Assembly (NCBI RefSeq): GCF_003966565.1
Contig: NZ_AP018719.1
Coordinates: forward strand, 62,001 to 126,000
Length of the DNA stretch: 64,000 nucleotides
Reading direction: 5' to 3'
Origin: Sulfuricystis multivorans
GTDB lineage: Bacteria > Pseudomonadota > Gammaproteobacteria > Burkholderiales > Rhodocyclaceae
Positions 1,088-60,920 of the stretch are shown piece by piece. Numbering within the stretch: position 1 is the stretch's first letter; each line of letters begins with the position of its first letter. Under the pieces are notes generated by a model. It was not told where the DNA came from. It did not search any database and saw nothing but the letters and a program-made list of their open reading frames with translations. A program made the translations under genes and the position numbers.

Positions 1088-3277
1088 TTGAAGACGGATC
1101 TGAAATCACTGACCGACGTCATGCTCACCGAAGACACCAAACAAGAAATCCGCGACAAGCTGGCTGCCATTTCCAAGGCCATCCCAGGTTTCCGTTCGCG
1201 CCCGGCACAGAGAGTGATGATCGCTGAGGTGGCGAAGACTCTGGCCCGCTGTCCTGATCCGGGACTGAGTGTCAGCAAGCCAGTCCCTGGGCAGACCATT
1301 TTGGTCATTCAAGGTGGCACCGGTACCGGCAAGTCCCTGGGGTATGGACTGGCCGGCATGGTCATGGCCAAGCGCAAGGGCAAGAAGCTGGTCATTTCCT
1401 CGTCGACCATCGCTTTGCAGGAGCAACTGACGATTCGCGATCTCCCCCTCTTCAGCCAGGCAGCAGGTCTCAACGTATCGATCGAGCTCGCCAAGGGCAG
1501 GACCCGTTACGTATGTCAATACAAGCTCAATCAGGCGATTGGTGATATGCAGCAGATCGCCATGTTCGACCACAAGGAAGAACGTGCTGGCGCGACTGGC
1601 GACGTCGATTCCGACTCGATCCGGAAGGATATCGAGGCTATGGCAAAGGATCTAGCGGAAGGCCGTTGGAATGGCGATCGTGACTTACGGGATGCTGTAA
1701 CTGATGAGGTATGGAAGTCGATTACTACCGACCGTCATGGCTGTCTCAACCGGATCTGCCCGTTCTACAAAAGCTGCACCCAGATGGCCGCGCGCAAGCG
1801 CTTGCGCGATGCTTCGGTGATCGTTGCCAACCACGATCTACTCCTCGCCGACCTTGCTATGGGCGGCGGCAAGATCCTTCCACCTCCGGAGGAATGCTTC
1901 TACGTCATCGACGAAGCTCATAGTCTCCCCGAGAAGGCTGTCTCGAGCTTTGCCTCTGGCCACTTCATCAATGCCGAGCGCCGGTCGGCCGAAAAGCTGA
2001 TCAACCTGGCTACCAATCTTCAGGTAGCACTGGGGTCCGCATATGAGCATACATGTGAGCAGATCCATGATGAGGCTGATCGGCTGCGTTCCGATCTCAC
2101 TGACGCCTACGGTTTCCTCTCGAGCCTTGCACAGCTGCAACCGTCCATCAAATGTCCTCGTCCAACGATTGAGTTCGAGGATTCTTGCCTCCCTGAGGAG
2201 TTCTTCGAGATCGGCGAGAACATCAAGAGCTTGACGAACAGCTTGTCTGGCCTCCTTGACGAGTGCCAGCGCGCCCTCAACGACCAACTCGGCACTGATC
2301 GCAGTAAGCAAGCGTTGTTCGAAAAACTGTTGGCCGAGGTCGGCTTCCAGTTGGGTCGGATGGAGGAAGTGCACACTACTTGGAACCTCTTCCTTAAGGA
2401 GCCAGGCGAGAACGCCCCGCCGGTGGCCAAGTGGATCGAGGCCATCAGTTTCAAGAAGAACAGCGTCGACTACCAGATCAATGCTTCTCCGGTTTTCGCC
2501 GGCGACTACCTTCGCCACCTCCTTTGGGAAAAAGCTGCAGGCGTGGTGTTGACCTCCGCTACGATTACCACCCTGGGGACCTTCGATGATTTCCTTCGTC
2601 GAACAGGCCTGGATTCCTACGAAGTTTCGTGCGTAGACCTACCCAGCCCGTTCGACTACGCTACCCAGGGCCTCATCGACATCCCGAAGATGCCGAGCCC
2701 CAAGCACTACGAGGCCCATACCAAGGCGGTGGCTGATCGCCTGATCACCGACATGGCTAAGCAGGGCCCTGAAGGGATGTTGGTGCTCTTCACCAGTCGG
2801 CGCCAGATGGAAGACATCGCAGGTCGGTTGCCGAAGGATTTGCGTGCTCGGGTCTTGGTTCAAGGCGAGCAGTCTAAGGCCGCGATTATCTCCGCCCATT
2901 GTGCTGCCATTGATGCCGGCAAGCCTTCCACAATATTCGGCTTGGCGTCTTTCACGGAGGGCGTTGATCTGCCCTCGAGCTACTGCACCCAGGTCGTGAT
3001 CACCAAGCTACCGTTCGCTGTCCCCGACAGCCCGGTTCTTCGTACGTTGGCCAGATGGATCGAACGCCGCGGCGGCAATCCCTTCATGGAGATATCGGTA
3101 CCGGATGCCGCGCGCAAGCTCGAGCAATCCGTCGGTCGCTTGATCCGTAATGAAACCGACCACGGACAAGTGGTTGTTACTGACCCTCGTCTCTGGGAAT
3201 CCCGCTTTGGTCGCGCGATGCTGCGCGGATTGCCGAACTTCCGCGTAAAGGCGATGGGCAAGGAGGTAAGACTGTGA
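1088..3277 (+). CDS. DinG/XPD-like ATP-dependent DNA helicase with iron-sulfur cysteines
   Basis: The 729-residue protein belongs to the Rad3/XPD/DinG superfamily-2 helicases, 5'-3' enzymes that unwind forked or R-loop DNA. Walker A GGTGTGKS lies at residues 76-83 and the DEAH box at 275-278 (VIDEAHSL). Four cysteines between them (143, 219, 224, 230; CLNRICPFYKSC) fit the Fe-S cluster. Motif VI (QSVGRLIRNE) is near the C-terminus. The TTG at 1088 gives the longest frame; ATG at 1121 is an alternative and neither has a strong ribosome-binding site. The stop overlaps the GTG of the next HTH gene. Size and motifs match DinG, but an accessory paralogue carried for element maintenance is likelier than the chromosomal gene. 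Type IV CRISPR systems also use DinG, but no csf genes or repeats are present. Confidence 0.85.
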   Translation: MKTDLKSLTDVMLTEDTKQEIRDKLAAISKAIPGFRSRPAQRVMIAEVAKTLARCPDPGLSVSKPVPGQTILVIQGGTGTGKSLGYGLAGMVMAKRKGKKLVISSSTIALQEQLTIRDLPLFSQAAGLNVSIELAKGRTRYVCQYKLNQAIGDMQQIAMFDHKEERAGATGDVDSDSIRKDIEAMAKDLAEGRWNGDRDLRDAVTDEVWKSITTDRHGCLNRICPFYKSCTQMAARKRLRDASVIVANHDLLLADLAMGGGKILPPPEECFYVIDEAHSLPEKAVSSFASGHFINAERRSAEKLINLATNLQVALGSAYEHTCEQIHDEADRLRSDLTDAYGFLSSLAQLQPSIKCPRPTIEFEDSCLPEEFFEIGENIKSLTNSLSGLLDECQRALNDQLGTDRSKQALFEKLLAEVGFQLGRMEEVHTTWNLFLKEPGENAPPVAKWIEAISFKKNSVDYQINASPVFAGDYLRHLLWEKAAGVVLTSATITTLGTFDDFLRRTGLDSYEVSCVDLPSPFDYATQGLIDIPKMPSPKHYEAHTKAVADRLITDMAKQGPEGMLVLFTSRRQMEDIAGRLPKDLRARVLVQGEQSKAAIISAHCAAIDAGKPSTIFGLASFTEGVDLPSSYCTQVVITKLPFAVPDSPVLRTLARWIERRGGNPFMEISVPDAARKLEQSVGRLIRNETDHGQVVVTDPRLWESRFGRAMLRGLPNFRVKAMGKEVRL

Positions 3278-8715: not shown

Positions 8716-8863
8716 TCGATTATTTTGGGATTATCGTGGATGGAGCTGCCTTGCTCTATACGGAAATGCAGTTTGATTCCGCAGGTTAGACGGAGGAATG
8801 GATCTGCTGGCCTATAGGACAGCAAACAAACGCATCTCGTGCAATGGCACGCCACGCTATCTA

Positions 8864-18827: not shown

Positions 18828-19737
18828 GTCTGGTCTCCAGGTGTTGAATGGAAAACCGACTCGGTCTTGTCGGTGCGCAGATGTGCGCAGTCCTCATGCG
18901 GAGCCGCGCATGAGGAAAGTTCGGGTACAGCAGGAATGGCGAGAGTGTTTAGAAAGGTGAATCAGGTGGCGACGGCAGGTTCCATTTCTGCAACCCGGCG
19001 TCAGCGGCGGCGCATCACAGCGCGGCACGCCCAAGTCCGGTAGCCCAATCCGCTCGCAGCGGTTGGACCCATTGGTGTCGAATCGCATTCGACGGGAGCA
19101 CCCCAGAGGAATACCCCCCAGGCGGATTTTTACCCGCACCGGTCCTGTCCATCTGCGACCACGAGCCCCATGGACTCGCTTCGCAGTCCGATCGTTTTGC
19201 CTAACCAGGCAAGGTGGTCATCCGTGGATGACTCGATCGCTTTTCTGAAGAAATTGCTCCGGCCCCGAAGGGATTTTTGCCTCCTGCCACCAGAGGCCTC
19301 GGTTGCGCCGTCCAGCTAGACGATCCGGCCTCTACCGGATTTCTACACCGGGGGTCCATGAAGGACGCTCACGCTGCAATTTCTTTGTTCGAGTGTCGGC
19401 CAGTGGGTGAAGTGCAAAAGAGTCAGGGACCGCCCTGCTCCTGCAACGACATGCCAAAAGGCCCAGGAAAGTTGTCCTCCAGTGAGGAGAACGATGATGG
19501 GAGTTGCACAACAACTCGGTAACGCCCGTCTAAGAGCGGGATGTCCCACAGGACATCGAAGGCCGTAGCCAGTTCTACCAGCTACGGGATTCCGGCGCGG
19601 CTCGCACCGAAATAGCAACGGCTTTGTTGGTTTTGACAACACCAACTCCAGGAGGCCGTCGTGATCCTGGGTGGTCCATCACGGACACACAACGGGGCGC
19701 ATTTTGATCGCTTTTACCGGTCCGTGTCAACCCCTCA
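18828..19737. other. Gene-free, hairpin-rich region
   Basis: About 900 bases with no believable gene. At least a dozen short perfect stems occur in a row. Examples are CCTCATGC/GCATGAGG (18892/18908), CCGCT/AGCGG (19050/19058), GTCGAAT/ATTCGAC (19077/19087), TTGCCT/AGGCAA (19197/19207), GTCATCC/GGATGAC (19217/19226), ATCCGG/CCGGAT (19323/19335), GAGTTG/CAACTC (19501/19512), ATGTCC/GGACAT (19541/19551), CCGTAGC/GCTACGG (19563/19581) and CGTGAT/ATCACG (19660/19678). Possible roles are a structured RNA, a single-strand origin, leading-region promoters or an oriT; none can be proven from sequence alone. Confidence 0.5.
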
Positions 19738-20087: not shown

Positions 20088-20224
20088 CCCTTGGGATTTA
20101 CGCAAAAAAGTTTGCGCTACCTGTCCATTCCTACCTCTAATCCCATCGATTCGGCAGTATTTCCGACTTCCTTCCACCCATCCGGATGCCGACAATCACC
20201 TCTCCCATATCAGAGAGGCCTTCC

Positions 20225-27839: not shown

Positions 27840-30800
27840 TTACTTCCCGATCCAGTAATCCTTCGCGCTTTGGAGGGCATTGTTTAATGTCTCGCCTGCT
27901 CTATCAAAAAACCCGTCATCTCGATGCTCACTAAAGAACTGCTTGTCATCCTCGGTGACTCGCCCGTGGCGACCAATTTGCTCCAGGCGAGCGTTGAACG
28001 CCGGATTGGAATCCGCCAGCTTCTGAATGGCAGCACGGTTTTCATCATGCGTTTTCGTCCCAATGCCAAATCCCAGTGAAGCACTAAGGAGCCGTCCGAA
28101 TCCCGCTTGGTCTGCAAACGCGGCCTCCAACAACCGGTTGATCCCTGCTTCGCGAGCAGCACTGTGCTGGCCCGAATTCAAGCCGCGTTCTGTAGATCCC
28201 TTGATCGTGTCGAAAGCCTTCTGGGCAGACGTTAGGTCTGGCATATCAACGGAAGGTGGTGCTCCAACCTGTGTTCTTTGTTTTTCTGCCATTTGCAAGT
28301 AGCCTTGGCCGGCGGCAGCGGCAGCTTTCTGGTCTTTACCGCGCTGATTCTTAACCGCTTCTTGGCCGTCAAGACGTTGTTTGTCAACGCTCTTGGGAGC
28401 CTCGATTGGCTGGCCATCCATTCCATACGCCGAGCCACCAAGAGGTGCCACCGCTCCGGCAACGCGCCGAGCCACGGTGCTGGCAACCTGCTCGCGAAAG
28501 TTTGGATTTGTCACTGCCTGTTCAATGGCACGATACCCACTTCCACCAGCTAGGCGCAGCGCTTCGGCCCCGTAGAGACCATTGTCGTTGACTTCGACCG
28601 ACGCTCCGTTTGCATCGGTGCGTGAGCTGGCTTTGCTCGCAGTCTGCGTATAACTCTGGCTGACATTGGTTTGGTATGTTGCGTCTGTAGCTCTGGCCAA
28701 CGAGCCGAGGAAACTTTGCATTGCGGCACGTTCCCCGGAATTGCTCGTCTTGGACATCAGCCCCTCGATCGCCCTAGCCGCTTTATCGAAGTTCTTTTCT
28801 GCGCGCTGCTGAATCTCAGCGGTATTGCCCCGATCGCTAGACCAACTCTTCTGCTCAGTATCTCGAGAAGAGAAGCCATAAGTGGCGTTTGGCCCATATG
28901 ACGATTGGCTTGGAGCCTGGCCGAGTTGTTGCGCTGCACGATTGGCCTTGCCCTGTAGATCTTCTGCGGCGCCTTTCGGCATTGGCGATCCATTCTGACC
29001 GCCACCTGCCGGATCACCTACCGCCGGAACACCAGAAGATCCGGAAGCCGCCCCAGTCGTTGCACCCGGTGCCGAAGCACCTTGTTGCGCGACAGCCGGG
29101 GGAACATTTGAACCAGACGCCGCCTTGTACGGGTCGCCGTTAAGGACGTGTGCGGCACCCTGAGCATTCTGCTTGTTTTTTGCGTCATGTACAGGATTTT
29201 TTGCTGTCTGCGCTGCGCCCGCATTGATTCCAGCACGCCCACCGAGCTCAATGTTGCTTGTGTGAGCTGTGGCGGTAGTTGTGCCACTTCGGTCGCTGGC
29301 TGTGGTGGCTTTCCCGGAACCATCGCGGGTTAGCCATGACCAGTCACCCCCAAGGCTGTTCTCCAAAGCCTTCTGGATCTTCGCTGCCGCCGTCGCGCCT
29401 TCTTGATGCGTAAACTGCCCAGAGGTCCTTTGGGCCAGACCCGATGACGTACCACTGGTGAATTCTGCCCGATCGCCGCTGCTGCCAATCTTCGCAGCCT
29501 CCACACGCGCGCCATGGCTACCAATGACCCCAATATTGCCATATTCGCCCGTAAGATTCCCGACCGCATTAGGTGTGCCGGCTTGGCTCCCACGAAGGGT
29601 CATCGAGCCGAATTCGGTTTGGACATCGCCGCGGCTCAGCATTGCGTAAGCAAAGGCCGTATTCGAGTGGTTTGCAGCCGCATTGTTGGCGTTGTAATTG
29701 CCCCAAGAAATGTTGCCAGCATTGACGTTGCCGGACCCTACCTGTCCGCCCACATTGGTTGCTGCTCTATCAGCAGGTCCGGTAATGCCGGACGTAATCC
29801 CTGAAAGAGCAATTTCACCCCCCTTGATTATGGCCAGGGCAATCAAAGGAACACTGATGGTCAGAACCCCTGCTACGGCTTCGGCGGAGATTGTGCTGTT
29901 CAGCAATGCAGCCGCATTGTTCACCGCTACCCCATCGATACCCGCGAGGGCGGCTTTGAAATTTTTCGCGCCGGCCATTGTGCCAACATAGTTCACAATT
30001 GCATACAGCGGAGCCCACAGCTGAACCCAGAGCATAGTCATTACATAGGAACGGAGAACCAACCCCCCTTTGGAGCCGGCGATGATAATCAGGATGAGAA
30101 CTATCGGGAAAATGCCGAGCACCACAAGTTCGATCGCGTTCCGTACAAGAGGAAGCGTTTCTTGAGCCAGTCGGGCCAAGACCGAATAGGCCGTATTGGC
30201 ATTGGACGTTGCCATTGCAGTACCTAGAGCAGTTTGCGCGGCCGTAGGATCGTTCATGATCTGTGCCATGTTCGACGAGGTATCGTTGAGCATGTTGATC
30301 ATCATTCGCTGTCTGATGGCATCGGTAGTAGACGCACTGGCGGTCATGATCAATCCTTCAGCAGCCGGCAGCAGGGAAGCGAGCATCGTGTTAGCCGTTG
30401 CAGGACTCGCATTCGGAGATAGGATCTGTGCGATACGAGCAAATTCGCTCGCTGCCGCCGGAGCCAGTCTGGGCCCGATCTTGTTGGTATAGGCATCGTC
30501 GCATTGGACGGAGCCAGTGTTGCCAGAGAGCGTGACCATTCGGCCAGGGTTGAGGACGCCGATACCCGATGGCCCGAGATCTGTCCAGATATCCTTCGAG
30601 ACGAGCAGCGCATTGACCAGCGCCGGAGATACCACCAGCTCTGGATTGATGCACTCTCGCATAAAGTTGGTAACATCCTGAGCCAGGATAGGATCAGGCA
30701 TGGCCGCGGACTGTGCCAGCCTGAGGGCCCTTGCCCCCCCCATCAGACCATGCGAACTCAGCCGCAACGATGTATCGGGAAGGGAGAAGAATGTCTCAGT

Positions 30801-34695: not shown

Positions 34696-34744
34696 CAATG
34701 CAGAAATGCAGCCGAAAAAGTGGAGTTAGGTGCAGTTTTGGATT
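34696..34744 (-). promoter_or_regulatory. Activator box 1, in front of the lipoprotein-traF-traH-traG operon
   Basis: Read on the minus strand the 49-bp box carries AATCCAAAACTGCACCTAAC, then TCCACTTTTTCGGCTGCATT and TCTGCATTG. It is the most divergent of four copies but keeps the CACCTAA, TTTTTCGGC and CATTTCTGCATTG blocks. It lies 33 bp upstream of the start codon. Confidence 0.75.
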
Positions 34745-42235: not shown

Positions 42236-42284
42236 CAATGGAGAAATGCCGCCGAAAATGTGGGACTAGGCGTAGAAATGGACT
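42236..42284 (-). promoter_or_regulatory. Activator box 2, in front of the traW operon
   Basis: Minus strand, in pieces: AGTCCATTTCTACGCCTAGT, CCCACATTTTCGGCGGCATT, TCTCCATTG. Three CATTT repeats start at offsets 5, 25 and 37 of the box (CATTTCTAC, CATTTTCGG, CATTTCTCC). It lies 32 bp from the traW ATG at 42203. Confidence 0.85.
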
Positions 42285-50980: not shown

Positions 50981-51235
50981 TTATGCTTCTGTCTTGCTAT
51001 GGATATCGCGAACAACCACCTCACGCGTCCGAGCAAGCAAACGGTAGAGAGCTTCTTTGCTCTTTCCTGCGTCTTCGATAACCAGCTCAAGAGCTGCAGT
51101 TGCAAGACGGCGTTCTTGAAATAGGTCGCGATCAGGAAGAGTGGAGCGAAGATCGCGAAGCGCCTTTTTGGTCTCTTCCCTGACGAGGACTGCTTTGTAG
51201 CCGTACTCGTGGTTTCCAGTAGTCTGATTGTTCAT
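50981..51235 (-). CDS. Small RHH-like protein, 84 residues
   Basis: The product (NHEYGYKAVLVREETKKALR, DLRSTLPDRDLFQERRLATA) has a strand followed by two helices with RLATAALELVI at the second helix, like Arc/TraY-type ribbon-helix-helix proteins. The position directly before the pilin gene fits a TraY-like regulator or oriT-binding protein, though this is only context. The start overlaps the OmpA-like gene by 4 bases. Confidence 0.5.
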   Translation of the reverse strand: MNNQTTGNHEYGYKAVLVREETKKALRDLRSTLPDRDLFQERRLATAALELVIEDAGKSKEALYRLLARTREVVVRDIHSKTEA

Positions 51236-51828: not shown

Positions 51829-52522
51829 CGTCACGCACCTCTTCATAATTCAGGAAGCCGCCGCCAACAGAGAACGCCTGGAGATCGTCTTCCCCAGATG
51901 CTGTCGCGAGCTTCATGGACTGGTCGGACTCTCCGAGCTTTACGACCATGATCTTCTTCGGCTGAATAGCAGCGCTTGCGCTGTGAATCGGCATGTTGGC
52001 AGCTGCAGTAGCAACCTGGCCATAGGCTGAGGCAGCTAACACTTGAGTCGGCGCATCGATGTCACCACCTTTTTTCAGTGCTGCGTGGATCTTCCAGGCA
52101 TATTGATTGCGGCGGCGAACGCACTCGGCTTTGTCCAGCTTGGCGCAGCCCACGTTGTAGGCGCCAATCGCATTCCAGTTCCAGCCAAGCTTCTTGGCGT
52201 TGTTGGACAGAATCCATGCGCCGACTTTGACATTCGTGCATGCGTCCTTCAGGGACTCTTCCGTAACGCCGTACTTCTCGAGTTTAGGCAGCCAACTCGA
52301 ATTGATCTGCATGATACCGACATCATATGTCCCATCACTGTTGACGTTGCGAGCATTTGCATTGAAGCCACTCTCTGTTTTCGCAACTGCCTTAAGCACC
52401 TCAACCGGGATGCCATAGCTCTCGCTAGCAGCCTCCCAGCACGTTGCCCTTGCGACCATGGGTACTGTAACGGCCAGCCCACAAAGTGTGATCAACAGGT
52501 ATTTTGGGGTTGCGTTCTGCAT
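51821..52522 (-). CDS. Lytic transglycosylase (VirB1/TraL-type)
   Basis: The start is set at ATG 52522 (MQNATPKYLLITLCGLAVTV), which gives the common 33-bp distance to the activator box; the ORF start at 52546 is closer. After the signal peptide the SLT domain reads CWEAASESYGIPVEVLKAVA, KTESGFNANARNVNSDGTYD and VGIMQINSSWLPKLEKYG, with the catalytic glutamate in KTESG. It cuts peptidoglycan to make room for the secretion channel. It is the first gene of the traA-L-E-K-B-V-C operon. Confidence 0.9.
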   Translation of the reverse strand: MQNATPKYLLITLCGLAVTVPMVARATCWEAASESYGIPVEVLKAVAKTESGFNANARNVNSDGTYDVGIMQINSSWLPKLEKYGVTEESLKDACTNVKVGAWILSNNAKKLGWNWNAIGAYNVGCAKLDKAECVRRRNQYAWKIHAALKKGGDIDAPTQVLAASAYGQVATAAANMPIHSASAAIQPKKIMVVKLGESDQSMKLATASGEDDLQAFSVGGGFLNYEEVRDDE

Positions 52523-52555
52523 GGGCCAAATCTTGCCGGCTGACAAGAAAATCTA

Positions 52556-52604
52556 CAATGCAGAAATGCCGCCGTTTTGATGGGGTTAGGTGTAGAAATG
52601 GATT
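52556..52604 (-). promoter_or_regulatory. Activator box 3, in front of the pilin/core-complex operon
   Basis: Minus strand, in pieces: AATCCATTTCTACACCTAAC, CCCATCAAAACGGCGGCATT, TCTGCATTG. The outer CATTTCTAC and CATTTCTGC elements and GGCGGC are kept; the middle T-run is replaced by AAAA. It lies 33 bp from the ATG at 52522. Confidence 0.85.
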
Positions 52605-52607
52605 CAG

Positions 52608-53243
52608 TTACGCAGAATGTTGAATGTTCGAGATAACTAAGCGCACGAAAACGCCCATAAGCGTAATCACGACAGGGTAGAAAAAGACCGACAAAGGGGT
52701 CACTACAGCGAAGGCAACCATCGATGAAGCCGCCAAGGCGATAATCAGGTGCCATGAGACATTGTAGACTGTGGGAGATGTGTATTTGAATGAGGCCAGC
52801 TTTGCCTTTCTCGTCATCACTCCATCGAAAATAATGGCAGCTAAGAACGGTGTCAGATAAATCACCCAAGACCAGGAATGGGCAATCCTGAAAAAAAACA
52901 TCCAGATGTTGTAGAGAAAGTTCCCCCAGTATTCCATCAGGTGCTCAGCGTAAGGTGTCATCGCATTCGGTAGCATGACGCCTGGTGCCACTTCCTTACT
53001 CGGCATGGGCTTGACGAAATGCTTGCGAATGAGCGGATCAATTCCAGTACTGACCATCGCAACATCATAGAGCCGGTTCGTCCGATTAAGGATCGTCTGC
53101 ACTTCCTGGCCGTCATACCACTCCTCCGCGGTGGCCAGCTCCTTTTCTACGCACGACACATAGTCGGCTTGGTTAATCAGCAGTGGAGCGAATAGAAAGA
53201 TAACGATGATTGCGAACAGCCAAAGTAATCCGTGTCGGGTCAT
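52608..53243 (-). CDS. DUF4400 membrane protein
   Basis: The 211-residue protein has four membrane helices (LLWLFAIIVIFLFAPLLI, WSWVIYLTPFLAAIIFDG, WHLIIALAASSMVAFAVV and FFYPVVITLMGVFVRLVI). The pattern, with a polar periplasmic loop between helices 1 and 2 and RKAKLASFKYTSPTVYNVSW, matches the DUF4400 family that follows traD in SXT/R391, IncA/C and related elements. Role unknown. It is the last gene of the traI-traD operon. Confidence 0.8.
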   Translation of the reverse strand: MTRHGLLWLFAIIVIFLFAPLLINQADYVSCVEKELATAEEWYDGQEVQTILNRTNRLYDVAMVSTGIDPLIRKHFVKPMPSKEVAPGVMLPNAMTPYAEHLMEYWGNFLYNIWMFFFRIAHSWSWVIYLTPFLAAIIFDGVMTRKAKLASFKYTSPTVYNVSWHLIIALAASSMVAFAVVTPLSVFFYPVVITLMGVFVRLVISNIQHSA

Positions 53244-53253
53244 TATGGCTTTC

Positions 53254-53778
53254 CTACTGTGAGGGGCTCATGTGAAGCAAGCTCAGGTAATCAAGTCCAG
53301 CTACCTCGAGATCCTTTGTAGGACTGATAGCTGCCAGAAGCTTGATCATCACTGTGCTGGAAGCGACTGGAGTATCACGCTCTCGGATTTGTATCGCGTA
53401 GCGCTTATGGTTGGCAAGGTATCGCATCAAGGGCTCATCGTAGGTCCAGACTGACCAAAGTCCATCCTTGCCCTCAACAGACACGCGAATAGACGAAAGT
53501 GCCTTAGCACTTGCGGCGATTCGCTCGATGAACTTCCTGTGGCTTACTTCATAGCCTAAGAGCAATGTTTCGTCATAGGAAGCAATCGCATCCCGCAGCG
53601 TCTGTTCCGCAAGGTTCTCGCCATTCACGACCAGCCATGGTGACACGAAATAGATGAACTGGAACGCCACATGCTCCAGGGTAGGCCAATCAGTGAACGC
53701 CTTCACCGGGCCGGATGAGAATCCGGCGCTACTTAGAATTCTGTTGAGGCTTAATCTCACGAGGGTGTTAGCGTTCAT
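53254..53778 (-). CDS. Hypothetical protein of the traI-traD operon, 174 residues
   Basis: It overlaps traD by 4 bases and precedes the DUF4400 gene by 10. The sequence has LNRILSSAGFSSGPVKAFTD, FIYFVSPWLVVNGENLAEQT and LKLLAAISPTKDL-like IKLLAAISPTKDLEVAGLDY; it is soluble with no signal peptide. No family recognised, though its position is the one usually taken by a small unnamed gene in SXT-type traID operons. Confidence 0.6.
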   Translation of the reverse strand: MNANTLVRLSLNRILSSAGFSSGPVKAFTDWPTLEHVAFQFIYFVSPWLVVNGENLAEQTLRDAIASYDETLLLGYEVSHRKFIERIAASAKALSSIRVSVEGKDGLWSVWTYDEPLMRYLANHKRYAIQIRERDTPVASSTVMIKLLAAISPTKDLEVAGLDYLSLLHMSPSQ

Positions 53779-55700
53779 GCTTCTTCATGTGAAATGATTG
53801 GCAGACGGCCCTTGATAAGTCTGCCGCCTGAAACCATTGCGATGTATTGCCAGTTTGGCAGTTGCCCAAGTACGTCCGGCGGCAGAACATCTTCCAGAGC
53901 TTCAGTTACTCTCTCCTGTACAGAGCCGGTGAAATGTGTGATCGTCTTTTCTGTCGAAGAAGACGTCGCATGGATCTTCTGTTGCGTATAGACGTAGGTC
54001 TGACCAAAGGTTTCCGTAACGAAATCTTGAGTAACCCTGTCCTTGATTCGCATGGAAACGAGATTATTGAAGTTCCCGAGCATCTGTCTAGCCTTGTCCA
54101 TCGACTCGAACCGCGCAGCCAGGTCAGGAATCGTTTGGATGGCTGCCAGATTGATGAAGCCGGCACCGGCAGACTTGTTCAGCATTTGGATGTACGGATC
54201 GTTGACCACCTCTGCAGCCTCATCGACGATGAGGAATACCTTGTGGTTTCCGCCGTAGTTGTAAAAAGCTGCAGCAACCGAAGTTAGGTCCGATAGCAAC
54301 ATCGAGCCGACCGCAGAGCTGATTGTCTTATTTGCCAACGAATCCAGGCCAATGCTCACTACGCTGTTGGCGCGAATCAGCGAAGCTAGGTCTGTCATCG
54401 GCCGAGTATCTGCAACATCTCGCGGGTCAGGAGAAAGTAGATCTCCGAGCTCTCCGGTAGTGAGCATCCCCAGAATCGGCACAAGGTTTGCAATCATCTT
54501 GGTGTAGTGAGCGCTGTCATGCTTGTAGATGGTTGCCAAGGCCTCAATAGCTTCGTCTCGTATGCCACGCGGAACGATCATGTCCAGATAAAATTCCAGG
54601 AGAAGATTGAGAGACTGACGCACAAGGATCTCGCCATCTTCTTGCCCCTTCTTCCCCTTCACTTGCTTGAGCGTTCGCGCATACGCCGCCACTTCGGTTT
54701 CCCAATTCGGCTGTAGCTCCTCGTCGAAGAACTGAAGAATGACACGCATCAAGAGATCGGCAATCCCGTTGTCCACGTAGGAGCGAATGCGCACAAGTGA
54801 CGGCTTTTCGCCCGTTGCTAGCATGCCCATCACGATGGCGTTCAGCACCCCCCACGCAAAGTCTCGGAAGGAAGAAGACTTGTCCCCACCAGGCATCAGC
54901 GCGGCGATTCGCGATGCCAAGTCGCTTGGATTCGTATAGTTTTTCAATGGATCAATACGGGCGCTCTGCCCAGGGAATGCAAGATGGAATCTGACATAAT
55001 CATGTTCCCGGCCCGCCTGTTTGCACGCCGCACGCAGGGAGGCATCAAAGGGCTGGTCTCCCTTTGGATCAATGCAGATGACGGTGTAGCCAAGTTCGAT
55101 CGCCATTTCAGCAATGAGCTCTAAGAAGCGAGTCTTTCCGCACCGGGTTGTCCCGACCAGGAGGGTGTTACCTATTAAGTTCTGAATTGGCACATACAGA
55201 TCGTCCTCAGATCCATTCAGGCCGTGTATCCACGGGGCGCCAATATATTCAGTAGTATTTGCGCCCACCTGCTCACCGCTCCATTGTTCGATCATCCACA
55301 TGATCATCTTCGGTGGATAGAACTGTTCCGGGTCGGCCCGCTTGATTTCGTACACCCGCTGGGTATGAACCGGGGTCCAGTCGAAGCCCTTCCCAAACCA
55401 AAGCGCCCGCGAGTTTTCCTGCCCTTCTACGCTGGTGACTTTGGTTTTCAGTTCCTCGTCAGTGATGAAGCTGATGCCCTTACCACCCAGACTCCATTTG
55501 AGTCGCCAAATCTCCCATGCCCGAAGTAGGTTGAAGATCATGAAAACAAGAGCAGTCGCCCCAAGGTAGTAGAAGGGAAGGTCAGGGAAAGATGTGGTGT
55601 ACCATGCGTATGTCAGTCCTATCACGCAAAGGAACCACACGGCTGCAGAATAAGCCTCGTAGGCCTTCCGCCACGGCATTTCGAATTGGCGAAGAAGCAT
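53775..55700 (-). CDS. traD: TraD coupling protein (SXT-type VirD4)
   Basis: The 641-residue protein has two N-terminal membrane helices (AVWFLCVIGLTYAWYTTSFP and FYYLGATALVFMIFNLLRAW), a QFYPPKMIMWMIEQWSGEQV region, Walker A LLVGTTRCGKTRFLELIAEM near residue 183 and Walker B KVFLIVDEAAEVVNDPYIQM near residue 493. This is the SXT/R391 TraD subfamily of type IV coupling ATPases. It brings the relaxosome to the channel. Lies 5 bases after traI. Confidence 0.95.
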   Translation of the reverse strand: MLLRQFEMPWRKAYEAYSAAVWFLCVIGLTYAWYTTSFPDLPFYYLGATALVFMIFNLLRAWEIWRLKWSLGGKGISFITDEELKTKVTSVEGQENSRALWFGKGFDWTPVHTQRVYEIKRADPEQFYPPKMIMWMIEQWSGEQVGANTTEYIGAPWIHGLNGSEDDLYVPIQNLIGNTLLVGTTRCGKTRFLELIAEMAIELGYTVICIDPKGDQPFDASLRAACKQAGREHDYVRFHLAFPGQSARIDPLKNYTNPSDLASRIAALMPGGDKSSSFRDFAWGVLNAIVMGMLATGEKPSLVRIRSYVDNGIADLLMRVILQFFDEELQPNWETEVAAYARTLKQVKGKKGQEDGEILVRQSLNLLLEFYLDMIVPRGIRDEAIEALATIYKHDSAHYTKMIANLVPILGMLTTGELGDLLSPDPRDVADTRPMTDLASLIRANSVVSIGLDSLANKTISSAVGSMLLSDLTSVAAAFYNYGGNHKVFLIVDEAAEVVNDPYIQMLNKSAGAGFINLAAIQTIPDLAARFESMDKARQMLGNFNNLVSMRIKDRVTQDFVTETFGQTYVYTQQKIHATSSSTEKTITHFTGSVQERVTEALEDVLPPDVLGQLPNWQYIAMVSGGRLIKGRLPIISHEEA

Positions 55701-55705
55701 ATTTG

Positions 55706-57703
55706 TTATTCCTTGGGGGGGGTCATATCGAAGCCGAGGCTAGAAGCGATCTCTGGCTTCAGAATAATCATTCTGTGCGTCTTCCCATTGATCTCGACTG
55801 GATGAATTCGGCGACTTGCTCTGGTCTTGTCTTGCCAAAGCCACGCCTTCAGGCCAAGCTCTTCGAGAAGTTCCATCACAGGAATTCCGTGCCGGTTTAG
55901 TTCTTCGTGGCTAATTCCAAAGCCGTAAGGCAAAGCTGCAGTCACGCCGCTCATAGTTCCATTGCGATAGGCCTGCATAACCTCATTCAGCAGCCACGCA
56001 TTCGTGCGCTTTAGAGACCCGAGTAGCTTTGCAGCTGTTGGGCTCACGTCAGCTCCAAGCGAGGCGCCGCTGTCGCTTTCCTGATCTGGGTATCGTTGAC
56101 TCTTTGCTTGAACATCTTTCCCGGTGCCGCCATCCTTCTCTTCTTCTGCACTGATCCTGGGTTTCTTACGATTCGAGCTTTTAGGGGTTGCTGTCGCCGG
56201 CAGTTCCTTGTTTCCTTCAGGAAGAGGCTCGTTGCTTTGCACGCGGGACAGAATCTCTGCGGGCGGTGGCGCATTCAGTTCCTGCTTCGGCGCAGTCCAC
56301 AGCTTTTCATTTGCTGTACCGGCCGGAACATCCATTCCTGAAGGAGTATTCAGCGCAGAGGCATGAGCTATCGAAGCCTGCGTTGTACCGTTTGCCGCTG
56401 GAGCTGCTTGCTGATTCGCCTGAACCGTCGAAGTTGGCGAGAGTGCAAGTTGGATGTTCTTGTAAGGTTCGAAGTCGAAGCCCCGGGGGAAGATCACCTC
56501 TCCCTCTCGCAGCTTTACCATGCCCTCCTTCGCCTCGAATGTTCCCGGCAAAGCGATCGTCCAGTACCGAGAGCCGCTTTCGTTCAGCTGAAGAAGATTT
56601 GCGGATACCAGAAGGTCTGCCAAGGTATCCGGGTCTTTCGGGATGCCAGCAAACGAATCTCGAGCCAACAGGTTCGCTATGTCAGACGCTGCGACTGACC
56701 AGTCGATGTAAACGCCTTCCTTCCCCACCCAAAGACGACCACCTGATGCGACGTTGTTTGCGATCCACTTACCTCCTCGGACAAGGCGCCGCATTGCATC
56801 GACCAGGTGCATTTCAAGGTGGGTTCCGATTACCAAGTGCCCATAGTTCGTGGCGGACCGCTTCAAATCGTCCTCGATCACCCGGGTGATCACTGGAGCA
56901 ACCAGTCGACCGATCGGGTTCTCGGATGTATTGGTTTCGACACCAGCGATCGTTGCGGTCATTGCCGGTACTATTTGATTATTGTCGCTGGCGAGATACT
57001 CTAGAACGTCATGGGGGACTACTTGAGAAATTGAATACGCAGATGATGCTTGGGCACCGTGAACGTGCGTATCTTCCATCCAGCGGACAAAATAGACGTC
57101 TGCTTTCGTATTCGTGCACCATTGGAAAAGGGAGTGCAGGAGCGGAGACCACTGTTGGTTGTCCCTCGTCATAACCGCCATCGAATTGACTGTGCGGTAG
57201 TTCTGGCTGCATAGACCTGCTAGGAAGGTGGCCAACGTCCACTTTGGTTGCATGAAAAATCTGCGCTCAACCCCTCCTCCGGTGGGAAAGACTGCTGCAT
57301 TGGCTGATTGCAGCGAATTCAGTGCGATTTCGAGACTCATGCGGAAAAGCCCACCAGTTCCGCGGAAATAGGTAGTGCTCGTTGCCGGTAGTAAATGCAC
57401 GTGCTCCGCCATATTTCGTACGGCCGGCATGTAGAGGCGGTTGAAGTCGGCACGCGAGACGCCGGCGGTGCGGAAGATGCGGTCCAGCAACTCTTGTTGC
57501 GATTGCAGGATTTTCTCTACGGGGATGACAGGTATGCCTTTGTCGAATGGAGGATAGCGTGTTATCGCATAGTCGCCTGGATCCTCTTCGCCCGGATAGA
57601 CGTCCAAGCCGATCCCACGGGACTGGAGTTTCTGCGGGATCAACAATGGAGCAGATTGTTGCGTTGGAGTACGAGTCAGCAGACGGCGGATAAACTTGAG
57701 CAT
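55706..57703 (-). CDS. traI: TraI, MobH-family relaxase-like protein lacking canonical HD residues
   Basis: The 665-residue protein matches the TraI_2/TraI_2_C (MobH) family: YPGEEDPGDYAITRYPPFDK-type opening, MAEHVHLLPATSTT, GGLFRMSLEIALNSLQSANA, QWSPLLHSLFQWCTNTKADV and YFVRWMEDTHVHG, plus a C-terminal domain (LLNEVMQAYRNGTMSGVTAA, MELLEELGLKAWLWQD). In relatives the first blocks read roughly 'HHH...GGLLRHxLEVA' and 'LLHDxGK'. Here TYF (111-113), M122 and LCSQNYR (164-170) stand at those places, so the metal-binding histidines and the HD pair look lost. It either does not nick DNA itself or uses other residues. The start, 33 bp from box 4, has no good ribosome-binding site. Confidence 0.85.
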   Translation of the reverse strand: MLKFIRRLLTRTPTQQSAPLLIPQKLQSRGIGLDVYPGEEDPGDYAITRYPPFDKGIPVIPVEKILQSQQELLDRIFRTAGVSRADFNRLYMPAVRNMAEHVHLLPATSTTYFRGTGGLFRMSLEIALNSLQSANAAVFPTGGGVERRFFMQPKWTLATFLAGLCSQNYRTVNSMAVMTRDNQQWSPLLHSLFQWCTNTKADVYFVRWMEDTHVHGAQASSAYSISQVVPHDVLEYLASDNNQIVPAMTATIAGVETNTSENPIGRLVAPVITRVIEDDLKRSATNYGHLVIGTHLEMHLVDAMRRLVRGGKWIANNVASGGRLWVGKEGVYIDWSVAASDIANLLARDSFAGIPKDPDTLADLLVSANLLQLNESGSRYWTIALPGTFEAKEGMVKLREGEVIFPRGFDFEPYKNIQLALSPTSTVQANQQAAPAANGTTQASIAHASALNTPSGMDVPAGTANEKLWTAPKQELNAPPPAEILSRVQSNEPLPEGNKELPATATPKSSNRKKPRISAEEEKDGGTGKDVQAKSQRYPDQESDSGASLGADVSPTAAKLLGSLKRTNAWLLNEVMQAYRNGTMSGVTAALPYGFGISHEELNRHGIPVMELLEELGLKAWLWQDKTRASRRIHPVEINGKTHRMIILKPEIASSLGFDMTPPKE

Positions 57704-57736: not shown

Positions 57737-57785
57737 CAGCAGAGAAATGCCGCCGAAAATGCGGGACTAGGCGTAGGAATGGGCG
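57737..57785 (-). promoter_or_regulatory. Activator box 4, in front of the traI-traD operon
   Basis: Minus strand, in pieces: CGCCCATTCCTACGCCTAGT, CCCGCATTTTCGGCGGCATT, TCTCTGCTG. It agrees with box 2 over most of its length and lies 33 bp from the traI ATG at 57703, right after the FlhC-like gene. Confidence 0.85.
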
Positions 57786-57796
57786 AAGATGAGATA

Positions 57797-58441
57797 TCAA
57801 CCTTCGCAGGCGTGGCGAGATGCCGCAATACGCTCGGAGTTCTCAACCAATCTCTCGTAACGCTTCTGTATTGCGCACATTGGGCACGACTGGTTGTCCA
57901 GCTCCGCTTCGGTGATCACGAGGTAGCTAGCTCCACAATCTGGGCAGTCCTTTAATGTCAGTGACGCATACTTACGCCCATACCCATAGCCAAGGTGAGT
58001 CATCAGATCATAGGCGTTATTCAGTGTGATCCTGGACAATCTGGGAAGAGCTTGCTGGATGGGGTCGGTGAGGCGGTAATACGCCTGGAAGGCCGTGGTA
58101 AGCAACCAACCGCGGTTTGCAGGCTCATCTAAAGCAGCTTCGATCTTGAGGTAGATACTGGCAAATGCAGCAGCTTGTAGATTCCAGTCGAGTCCCCCGC
58201 GATTATGGGGTATCGCATAATGTTTCGGCTGGGCCTGCTGGAGCCTTCCGGCTGGCGCTTCTTGGCCCGTGAGGCGCTTATACCGCTCGGCGATAGCCTT
58301 CGATGATAGGCCAGTGTACCTGGCGATCAGTTTCGGTTTTCCTCCCAACAGGACCATGGTATTCGCAAGGTCCAGGAATCTACTGACCCAGATGGGGTCA
58401 TCGAACTGAGCCGATTCTGGAATGGGGGCGCCTGGATGCAT
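57797..58441 (-). CDS. FlhC-like transcriptional activator subunit (SetC/AcaC-type)
   Basis: The 214-residue protein follows FlhC: a first helical part (SRFLDLANTMVLLGGKPKLI), a HTH-like stretch ARYTGLSSKAIAERYKRLTG with the family's GQEAPAGRL, a helical middle (FQAYYRLTDPIQQ) and a zinc site CPDCG (166-169) with CPMC (186-189). FlhC with FlhD forms the flagellar master activator; SetC/AcaC with SetD/AcaD do the same for conjugation genes in SXT and IncA/C elements. It lies 10 bases after the FlhD-like gene. Confidence 0.9.
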   Translation of the reverse strand: MHPGAPIPESAQFDDPIWVSRFLDLANTMVLLGGKPKLIARYTGLSSKAIAERYKRLTGQEAPAGRLQQAQPKHYAIPHNRGGLDWNLQAAAFASIYLKIEAALDEPANRGWLLTTAFQAYYRLTDPIQQALPRLSRITLNNAYDLMTHLGYGYGRKYASLTLKDCPDCGASYLVITEAELDNQSCPMCAIQKRYERLVENSERIAASRHACEG

Positions 58442-58451
58442 GACGATTTCC

Positions 58452-58904
58452 TTACGCAGCCGCTGCCAACATGGCGGCGGAATAGTGAGGGATAGCCTTC
58501 TGATGCAACGGCCTAATGCTAAGAGTAGCGGCCCCTGATACGTCGAATATTGTTCCTGGCCAGCGACGTGAGATGTCAGAAATTTGCTGGTTTGTCAGCC
58601 GCGCCAAGACGCGCGCTTGTGCCATGTTGATACTCAGAATGATCAGGCCATCGAAGTATCCGCTCAGGACGTCGCGGGCTGTCTGCCGTGCGAACAGCAG
58701 GTATTCCTTGTTGATAGCGGTGACGTCCGGGGGATTTTGGTGATGCGAATGAGCAACAACGGTAGCAACTGTCGAAAGCTCAGATGCCGATGGTTTTAGT
58801 TTCCCAAGGCAGACGGTGAGGAGATTCAGCGTCGAGTGCAAGTTGACATTCGCAGGCCCCATTTGCATCAGGATACGTTTGTTCAAAGCGCGTAAATCGT
58901 CCAT
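58452..58904 (-). CDS. FlhD-like transcriptional activator subunit (SetD/AcaD-type)
   Basis: ATG at 58904 follows GAAGGGTCGCAA, a good ribosome-binding site. The second half matches FlhD: INKEYLLFARQTARDVLSGY, LIILSINMAQARVLARLTNQ and QISDISRRWPGTIFDVSGAA, corresponding to FlhD's 'YLLLAQRLI...LGI...LAALT...VKLAE...CHFR'. The first 60 residues are an extension relative to E. coli FlhD. It is expected to form a hetero-oligomer with the FlhC-like protein. Promoter with a perfect TTGACA upstream (58989-59018). Confidence 0.85.
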   Translation of the reverse strand: MDDLRALNKRILMQMGPANVNLHSTLNLLTVCLGKLKPSASELSTVATVVAHSHHQNPPDVTAINKEYLLFARQTARDVLSGYFDGLIILSINMAQARVLARLTNQQISDISRRWPGTIFDVSGAATLSIRPLHQKAIPHYSAAMLAAAA

Positions 58905-58978: not shown

Positions 58979-59063
58979 CGTATTGCGGATTATTGTGAGG
59001 TGCGCCATACTTTGTCAAGAGATATTTTCCGTGTAACGGAGTTTTTGTTTCCGTAATGCGGAG
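58979..59063 (-). promoter_or_regulatory. Promoter and operator candidates of the FlhDC-like operon
   Basis: On the minus strand a perfect -35 TTGACA (59013-59018) is 18 bp from AATAAT (58989-58994). Three related palindromes surround it: TCCGTGTAACGGA (59028-59040), TTCCGTAATGCGGA (59049-59062) and, over the -10, the TCCGCAATACG form (58979-58989). Such spacing suggests a repressor or autoregulation. The rest of the 440-base divergent region holds the response regulator promoter and nothing else recognisable. Confidence 0.6.
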
Positions 59064-59344: not shown

Positions 59345-60004
59345 GTGCCGATTCGAGTATTTCTGGCGGATGATCACCGCCTACTGGTGGAGGGTTTCCG
59401 CCATGCCCTCAAGGACTACGACATCGATGTCGTGGAGGTTGCTTACAACCTTGATGGTTTGATTTCCCGTTACCTCGAGGTGAAACCCGATGTACTCGTC
59501 ATTGATGTCCGGTTTGACCGCAAGAGCGCGTCCGAGACTGGGCTAGATGTATGTGAGGAGCTTCTTGCTACGCACCCTGACGCGAAGATCATCGTCTTCT
59601 CTCAGTTCGACGACCAGTACATCATCGAGAAAGCCTATAAGATCGGAGTCCTGTCCTTCGTCCTGAAGGACGAAAGCATCGATGTCCTGAATCAAGCTAT
59701 CCGTACTGTCGCCGAAGGCAATGAGTTCTTTTCACCTAAAGTCGCACAACTACTTGCCCGATCCTCGGTAAAAGACCGGAATCCCACCAAGCTTCTCGAA
59801 GAGAAAGAACTTCGCGCATTCTTGCTGACTGCAGACGGAGCTTCTCTTGCTGACGTCGCCGAAACAATGGATCTGTCAACCAAGACCGTGGGCCATCTGC
59901 TGAAGAGCATCAAGTCCAAACTTGACATTGAGACGCAGGCTGATTTCACCAAGCTCGCGATTAGGTTCGGGCTTACTACGACCGAGTTGAAAACGAAAAA
60001 GTAA
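59345..60004 (+). CDS. NarL/LuxR-family response regulator
   Basis: GTG at 59345 begins MPIRVFLADDHRLLVEGFRH. The receiver domain has acidic residues D9-D10, phosphoacceptor D54 (VLVIDVRFD) and K108 (SFVLKDES). The C-terminal HTH (DGASLADVAETMDLSTKTVG, HLLKSIKSKLDIETQADF) is LuxR-like. No good ribosome-binding site precedes the GTG. It is convergent with, and overlaps by 29 bases, the histidine kinase gene, an unusual arrangement for a partner pair. Likely target genes include neighbours or the transfer activator. Confidence 0.88.
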   Translation: MPIRVFLADDHRLLVEGFRHALKDYDIDVVEVAYNLDGLISRYLEVKPDVLVIDVRFDRKSASETGLDVCEELLATHPDAKIIVFSQFDDQYIIEKAYKIGVLSFVLKDESIDVLNQAIRTVAEGNEFFSPKVAQLLARSSVKDRNPTKLLEEKELRAFLLTADGASLADVAETMDLSTKTVGHLLKSIKSKLDIETQADFTKLAIRFGLTTTELKTKK

Positions 60005-60920
60005 CCCGCGTTCCTGGGTGTTGAGCATTATCGGGGAACGCCGGTTGAATATTGAGATTTCCGCCGATCGCCCGGGCTCGCTCACGCATGTCGATAAGGC
60101 CAATGCCAGCGGGAATCCCTGCAGGCGTTTTGGCTCTTGACTTCAACCCTACCCCATCATCGGTAATCATGACTTCGATGAGGCGCTTCCGTTCATTCAA
60201 CTTCATGGATACAGAGATCTGCTTGGCATTGGAGTGCTTGATGGCATTGTAGATGGATTCACGGATGATTTTGTACGCCGTAATAGCAACTTCTTCATTG
60301 ATCTCCGGCCGTTTTGGTAGGTTGTGTTCCAAAACAATCTCGGGCTTATCGAAGAAATTGGTGTAGTGTGAGATCAAGGACTCAATCGCCACCGTAAAGC
60401 CTATCGAGTCGATCATTTCGATCCGAGCGCTCTTGATGATGTTACGTGTCTGGGAATAGGCATCTGCCAAGAGTTCCTGGATGGACGTAAGAATTTTGCT
60501 AGCTTCCGGATTGTCCTGGACGTAAGGCGCAAGGCGATTCAGTTCGTTTTTACAAAGCACAAGATTGGGATTTACATCGTCATGGAGGCGCCGAGAAATC
60601 ATCCGGCGCTCTTCGTCGATACGGCGATTCAGTTCCGCGAGAACGCGCCTGGTCTCCTCGTGTGAGACGTCGGTCTGGACGTTACTTTGTATATTTTCCA
60701 GGATGGACACATATAGCAGAAAGACTAAGGCCAGCACGGCTGGAAGGCTGGAAATGATATTCGATTTGATTGTGAATGGGAGCAAAACAACTAGGAACGC
60801 GGCCCATGTCCATAGAAAATATTTGGCCGTTAAGTTACCCCTAAATGCAAGGATCAGGTTGACAACGAAAGCCACCAACAGGAAAACGCAGATTGTTAGA
60901 AAGACGAAGCTTTCATCCAT
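59976..60920 (-). CDS. NarX-type sensor histidine kinase (HisKA_3)
   Basis: Three N-terminal hydrophobic segments (FLTICVFLLVAFVVNLIL, WTWAAFLVVLLPFTI and AVLALVFLLYVSIL) lack any sizeable periplasmic domain, so input probably comes from within the membrane or from a partner. The dimerisation helix has DEERRMISRRLHDDVNPNLV with phosphoacceptor H113, then an ATPase with RESIYNAIKHSNAKQIS (N box) and DDGVGL and GIGLIDMRERARAIGG (G boxes). It lies 26 bases after the DUF1805 gene in a three-gene operon and is the obvious partner of the convergent response regulator. Confidence 0.9.
   Translation of the reverse strand: MDESFVFLTICVFLLVAFVVNLILAFRGNLTAKYFLWTWAAFLVVLLPFTIKSNIISSLPAVLALVFLLYVSILENIQSNVQTDVSHEETRRVLAELNRRIDEERRMISRRLHDDVNPNLVLCKNELNRLAPYVQDNPEASKILTSIQELLADAYSQTRNIIKSARIEMIDSIGFTVAIESLISHYTNFFDKPEIVLEHNLPKRPEINEEVAITAYKIIRESIYNAIKHSNAKQISVSMKLNERKRLIEVMITDDGVGLKSRAKTPAGIPAGIGLIDMRERARAIGGNLNIQPAFPDNAQHPGTRVTFSFSTRS

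Follow-up and report, generated by a model that had tools for sequence, protein, structure and literature searches.

Several conjugative elements are controlled by FlhDC-type activators, and those already published include SetCD, AcaCD, SgaCD, AqaCD, and AsaCD (PMC4542580). The sites of SetCD and AcaCD have a class II layout, with a long site that overlaps or abuts a poor −35 (PMC4344509, PMC5058578, PMC4542580). BisDC of ICEclc is a published master activator in which BisC has DUF2857 and BisD has a ParB domain (PMC7423338), while deletion of orf246/orf247 in Rts1 abolishes transfer (PMC10838148). A 2014 paper described FlhC homologues immediately preceding MOBH traI in systems related to that of the gonococcal island (PMC4207684). 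Mapped sites are available for few conjugative FlhDC-like activators (SetCD and AcaCD). Here, we describe a further lineage, from environmental Betaproteobacteria and not from enteric bacteria, with a concrete candidate operator; the new content is this predicted operator and its predicted regulon.

The DNA stretch analyzed (64 kb; henceforth, the window) comprises bases 62001 to 126000 of contig C2 (149,340 bp) in a 2.81-Mb genome of three contigs with an estimated completeness of 100%. Based on the collinearity of C2 with plasmid pAZI09 of Azospira sp. I09 across most of the transfer region together with the presence of PRTRC-D and a ParA-like ORF, C2 is most likely a 149-kb plasmid of the MobH type. 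On the minus strand, the window contains an flhD-like gene, an flhC-like gene after a 10-bp gap, mobH, and traD, in this order, and the pair is followed by a complete F-type/MobH transfer region extending to traG at 27840 (Table 1). Thus, both open reading frames of the original prediction are present in the order flhD-flhC next to the tra region, and, as for SetCD and AcaCD, adjacent D and C genes lie on an element with a conjugation system.

Table 1. Positions of the flhDC-like pair, neighboring genes, predicted boxes, and promoter elements (window coordinates unless noted)
Feature	Position	Strand	Evidence or remark
FlhD-like subunit, 150 aa	58452..58904	-	Predicted FlhD fold, residues 54-132; extra N-terminal part, 1-57
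FlhC-like subunit, 214 aa	57797..58441	-	C166xxC169...C186xxC189
mobH relaxase, first transfer-region gene, directly downstream of flhC	55706..57703	-	NF041494 E 2.6e-91; PF07514
traD coupling protein, SXT type	53775..55700	-	TIGR03743 E 7.7e-197
40-bp box before mobH (predicted activator site)	57743..57782	-	ATG 39 bp from box end; same place on pAZI09
40-bp box before slt (lytic transglycosylase)	52562..52601	-	ATG 39 bp from box end (A at 52522); same place on pAZI09
40-bp box before traW	42242..42281	-	ATG 38 bp from box end; same place on pAZI09
Diverged 40-bp box before 398-aa gene heading traF-traH-traG block	34702..34741	-	ATG 39 bp from box end; pAZI09 257050-257089
40-bp box before PRTRC-D (ParM-like) gene	20125..20164	+	TIGR03739 E 2.8e-70; same place on pAZI09 (239703)
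Weak, doubtful box-like site 46 bp before 229-aa ORF	8762..8801	-	Weight matrix 19.8-23.8 bits vs 29-60 for others
Box sites beyond the window	145096-145135, 51165-51204, 18887-18926 (C2 coordinates)		Weight matrix
Conserved sigma70-like flhD promoter, TTGACA - 18 bp - AATAAT; without 40-bp box	58989..59018	-	pAZI09 alignment
Two TCCG-N5-CGGA palindromes with 22-bp spacing, close upstream of flhD -35	59028..59062	-	
NarL/GacA-type response regulator, divergent from flhD	59345..60004	+	PF00072 E 2.4e-16; NF052445 E 3.6e-34; same synteny on pAZI09
HisKA_3 histidine kinase (NarQ-like), convergent with response regulator	59976..60920	-	PF07730, PF02518; same synteny on pAZI09

The 214-aa protein matches the Pfam FlhC profile (PF05280) with 26.0 bits (E 9e-6), below the curated cut-off of 27 for membership; this profile covers known conjugative FlhC-like proteins poorly (PMC4542580). 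The NCBIfam FlhC profile matches with 31 bits (E 1.9e-7). The anticipated zinc site CxxC...CxxC is present, and its four cysteines are invariant across 23 FlhC-like domains. In a PDB search with a profile of five relatives, two solved FlhC structures came out on top (E 6e-4 and 0.0098). Using alignments without the pAZI09 rows, we built AlphaFold models of both proteins. The FlhC-like model (mean pLDDT 64) matches 8j56_C with a Z of 13.7 over 160/160 residues and 2avu_E with a Z of 13.0, the next entry being at 5.5. The subthreshold but specific Pfam match, the NCBIfam match, the zinc cysteines, the PDB profile search, and the predicted fold together support that this protein is of the FlhC type.

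For the 150-aa partner, searching Pfam, NCBIfam, and PDB with the plain sequence gave nothing usable. The NCBIfam FlhD profile did not match it, and the Pfam FlhD profile (PF05247) matched none of five members of its group. Profile-profile comparison (hhalign) gave 81.5% with FlhD. In its model (mean pLDDT 72), residues 54-132 match 8j56_A (Z 7.7), 2avu_A (7.2), 4es4_B (7.0), 5hxg_B (7.0), and 1g8e_A (6.8), all of which are FlhD, while the next entry is at 2.9. While sequence profiles alone fail, the profile-profile comparison and the model support that the partner carries an FlhD fold; in contrast to flagellar FlhD, it has an N-terminal extension. Accordingly, the proposed FlhD/FlhC match holds for FlhC by profile, cysteines, and predicted fold and for FlhD by predicted fold and hhalign, whereas the suggested HMM search found FlhC only.

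Using tblastn with both proteins against PLSDB, we found pAZI09 as the sole relative, with orthologues that are 92-93% (FlhC-like) and 79-80% (FlhD-like) identical and that have the same neighbors, two-component system included. A Rhodocyclaceae MAG holds a more distant relative (59% identical), and relatives on Burkholderiales MAG contigs are ~36% identical and lie beside integrases. A scan of the whole genome collection returned three loci only, and the viral contigs contained neither FlhC relatives nor the 40-bp box described below. Searching by relaxase instead, we found the order FlhD-like, FlhC-like, mobH, traD also on plasmids of Paraburkholderia (pBN2), Azonexus, Piscinibacter, and Janthinobacterium. 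With C2 and pAZI09, six betaproteobacterial plasmids therefore share this order, with the FlhC-like gene directly upstream of mobH. Of these plasmids, only pAZI09 carries a pair of the same clade as C2 along with the box and the two-component system. On the remaining ones, S24/CI-like repressors or different genes lie upstream, and fused subunits occur on some. At several chromosomal ICE-like loci, an FlhC-like gene is located just upstream of a MobH/TraI_2 gene; at three of them (L006, L008, and L010, in G048, G066, and G073), the TraI_2/MobH gene is directly preceded by two ORFs, a small FlhD-like one and an FlhC-like one. Annotation pipelines label many of these relatives "FlhC family transcriptional regulator."

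In a maximum-likelihood tree of 23 FlhC-like domains, which covers neither SetC (SXT) nor BisC (ICEclc), the window protein falls inside a five-member clade with a support of 100/99. The AcaC/AqaC side is separate (100/99), and the flagellar pair also lies apart; the deeper order has no resolution and several branches are long. Identity to AcaCD and to flagellar FlhDC is 19-22%. Based on this sequence comparison, the window pair forms a distinct, well-supported clade within a known type of regulator, and the clear divergence proposed originally was confirmed. The original interpretation thus stands in its main lines. However, the pair is not a third branch, as had also been suggested, because SetCD, AcaCD, SgaCD, AqaCD, AsaCD, BisDC, and the Rts1 pair were already published; rather, it counts as a further one among at least seven lineages that have been described or named.

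Like the window pair, AcaCD of IncA/C plasmids as well as SgaCD and AqaCD are FlhD/FlhC-type pairs on MobH plasmids, and AcaCD has a long operator before tra operons in a class II layout, as predicted here for C2. However, AcaCD is only ~20% identical to the window pair and has an unrelated operator. Moreover, acaDC lies away from mobH, whereas the window pair adjoins it; AcaD, unlike the window subunit, seems to consist of two tandem FlhD domains; and AcaCD is controlled by Acr1/Acr2. Membership in the AcaCD family was rejected, as the AcaCD core GCCCAAAATGGGC occurs at chance level in the window and the FlhC-like protein does not group with AcaC. SetCD of SXT/R391 ICEs resembles the window pair as an FlhDC-type activator of tra operons with a box abutting a poor −35; it answers to the SOS-cleaved repressor SetR, whereas the window pair adjoins a two-component system. 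BisDC similarly combines an FlhC-like subunit and a partner in a master activator of a conjugative element, but BisD has a ParB domain where the window partner has the predicted FlhD fold. We rejected membership in the BisDC family, since DUF2857 scored 19.3 bits in the FlhC-like protein versus a cut-off of 36.8 and the partner had no ParB match. Orf246/Orf247 also represent an FlhC-type gene pair, which is needed for conjugation in Rts1 (PMC10838148); the Rts1-like FlhC of pECTOK-001 is on the IncC side of the tree and its gene is not adjacent to mobH.

The comparison of the window and pAZI09 gave unexpected cross-matches at unrelated positions, which traced back to a single sequence repeated before mobH, traW, and slt. 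This sequence, CCATTYCTACRYCTARYCCC-N7-CGGCGGCATTTCY, forms a 40-bp box that precedes each of the four transcription blocks of the tra genes as well as the PRTRC-D gene (Table 1). On pAZI09, mobH, slt, traW, the same block (before traF), and PRTRC-D are likewise preceded by sites, and there are two others. With a weight matrix, we identified eight sites on C2 with scores of 29-60 bits, the best score in shuffled sequence being 15; some copies are near non-tra genes. Allowing ≤3 mismatches, we found five sites in the 2.81-Mb genome, all on C2 and none on the chromosome, and 0 with a reversed control. The inner motif occurs 5 times against a chance expectation of 0.01, and all four tra boxes are in intergenic gaps, which make up ~1% of possible box positions. 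Among 397 related genomes, there were 0 matches; the box was also absent from pBN2, the Azonexus and Piscinibacter plasmids, and IncC plasmids, all of which carry other FlhC-like proteins, and from the genome of the 59% identical Rhodocyclaceae relative. In a 40-bp blastn search of PLSDB, pAZI09 was the sole convincing match.

These data suggest that, as for SetCD and AcaCD, the tra operons have a common operator, which is probably the binding site of the FlhDC-like switch, and the pair very probably has a DNA target of its own, as originally predicted. The proposed link between box and pair draws on two plasmids with activators that are 93% (FlhC-like) and 79% (FlhD-like) identical. A search for a comparable repeated motif on pBN2 and on the plasmids of Piscinibacter and Azonexus gave no clear equivalent. 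On pBN2 (L044), flhD, PRTRC-D, virB8, and two other genes are preceded by a weak ACTTCCTGnnAnGAAAT-like repeat, to which the activator of pBN2 itself or, equally, its CI-like repressor might bind.

Three bases past the box, there is TTG or CTG, followed by ~17-18 bp, a −10-like hexamer, 6-7 bp, and ATG. The hexamers behind the tra boxes are TATCTT, GATAAT, CAAGAT, and TATCCT; relative to the ATG, a −10-like hexamer lies at about −13 to −7 on C2 and pAZI09 alike. On both plasmids, mobH, slt, traW, and the gene heading the traF block begin with an ATG 38-39 bp from the box, their start codons in the window being at 57703, 52522, 42203, and 34662, respectively; PRTRC-D and some other sites have longer leaders. 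This spacing suggests that the tra promoters are of class II and that transcription would begin at, or immediately beside, the start codon; the tra mRNAs are therefore predicted to be, possibly, leaderless. One box lies before the ParM-like PRTRC-D gene and others near non-tra genes, which would fit a DNA site with another role, in partition, in replication, or as an RNA element, standing before tra genes by accident. We consider this highly improbable, because the tra boxes all have the same orientation and the same distance to the start codon on both plasmids.

Our preferred reading, which we regard as likely, is that the pair acts as a heteromeric activator of the FlhDC type and turns on the transfer genes through the box. 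The plasmid-borne two-component system, or basal transcription, would act on the sigma70-type flhD promoter; the two subunits, as suggested by folds and gene order, would form a complex; and this complex would bind the box before mobH, slt, traW, the traF-traH-traG block, PRTRC-D, and a few plasmid genes. There, it would replace the weak −35 as a class II activator, with the −10 ~10 bp before the start codon. That the pair instead mainly controls a function other than transfer, e.g., host motility, or is a nonfunctional remnant seems very unlikely. Cross-talk with the chromosomal flagellar FlhDC of the host is conceivable, but both subunits are conserved with pAZI09, the zinc cysteines are intact, the gene order beside mobH is fixed on six plasmids, and the chromosome lacks the box.

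Upstream of flhD, the promoter has the consensus TTGACA-18-(A/C)ATAAT over the window and pAZI09. There is no box before flhD, the response regulator gene, or the kinase gene and, therefore, direct self-activation of flhDC via the box is not expected. The palindromes close to the −35 (Table 1) are well placed for response-regulator sites; they occur 2 times in the 64-kb window versus 1.6 times expected and are partly kept in pAZI09, and we consider such a role possible but weakly indicated. These observations bear on whether the pair activates tra while the box belongs to another plasmid regulator, e.g., the response regulator, a repressor, or a nucleoid-type protein. The box is defined by repetition only, and the two-component system shares the two-plasmid distribution and the synteny. 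However, 40 bp is long for NarL-type regulators and normal for FlhDC and AcaCD types, and the box is lacking at all three regulatory genes, with a different conserved promoter region at flhD; hence, we think that ownership by another regulator is rather unlikely.

The gene order suggests that the input module of flhDC has been exchanged between plasmids: an HTH/S24 (CI-like) regulator takes the place of the two-component system on pBN2 and on the plasmids of Azonexus and Janthinobacterium. This would suggest that one activator core can be coupled to different inputs, i.e., SOS-type repressors or a two-component system. We put forward only tentatively the more specific idea that an FlhDC-type activator, equipped with a 40-bp operator of its own and firing leaderless class II tra promoters, is driven by a plasmid-borne two-component system in place of an SOS-cleaved repressor. 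If so, an outside signal would turn on transfer in a cell that also has flagellar FlhDC and an FlhC-like gene beside mobH on a second plasmid.

Fused and tandem subunits were observed among the relatives. The FlhC-like proteins of Azonexus NZ_CP151407 (L024 7648-8841) and Piscinibacter NZ_CP136337 (L023 7647-8843) have 397-398 aa and look like two FlhC units fused in tandem with two cysteine clusters; the Azonexus protein has two Pfam FlhC stretches, and the Piscinibacter protein is annotated as a shorter ORF. On Robbsia p3 (L050 3398-4489), FlhD (83-160, E 0.0099) and FlhC (198-358, E 2.8e-10) are fused in one polypeptide, and the protein of Burkholderia cenocepacia pBcp895-1 (L052 3218-4417) appears by eye to be an FlhD-FlhC fusion of this type. 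AcaD (L021 45000-45608), AqaD (L049 1421-2002), and the Halomonas D subunit (L046 1925-2467) have 180-202 aa and resemble a tandem of two FlhD units, an arrangement that would be compatible with a D4C2 complex made from two chains of each; in AcaD, the second unit alone matches Pfam FlhD.

The genome carries three FlhC: besides the C2 copy, there is the FlhC of the flagellar FlhDC on the chromosome, and contig C3, a second replicon of 102.6 kb, has an FlhC-like gene close to one for a MobH relaxase. Confinement of the box to C2 fits with separate DNA targets for the three copies and suggests that FlhDC copies within one cell are kept apart by different targets; the box could also be used as a tag for finding islands that answer to the C2 plasmid. 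The C3 gene (~52524-52964) is flanked by a gene for a DinG-like helicase of type IV CRISPR on one side and by genes for an S26 peptidase and the MobH relaxase on the other, and a CRISPR-like 41-nt repeat in three copies with 66-67 nt spacing is located just before flhC. In the window, a gene at 1088-3277 (+) encodes a 729-aa helicase matching type IV-A CRISPR DinG (PADLOC PDLC01439, E 1.9e-120).
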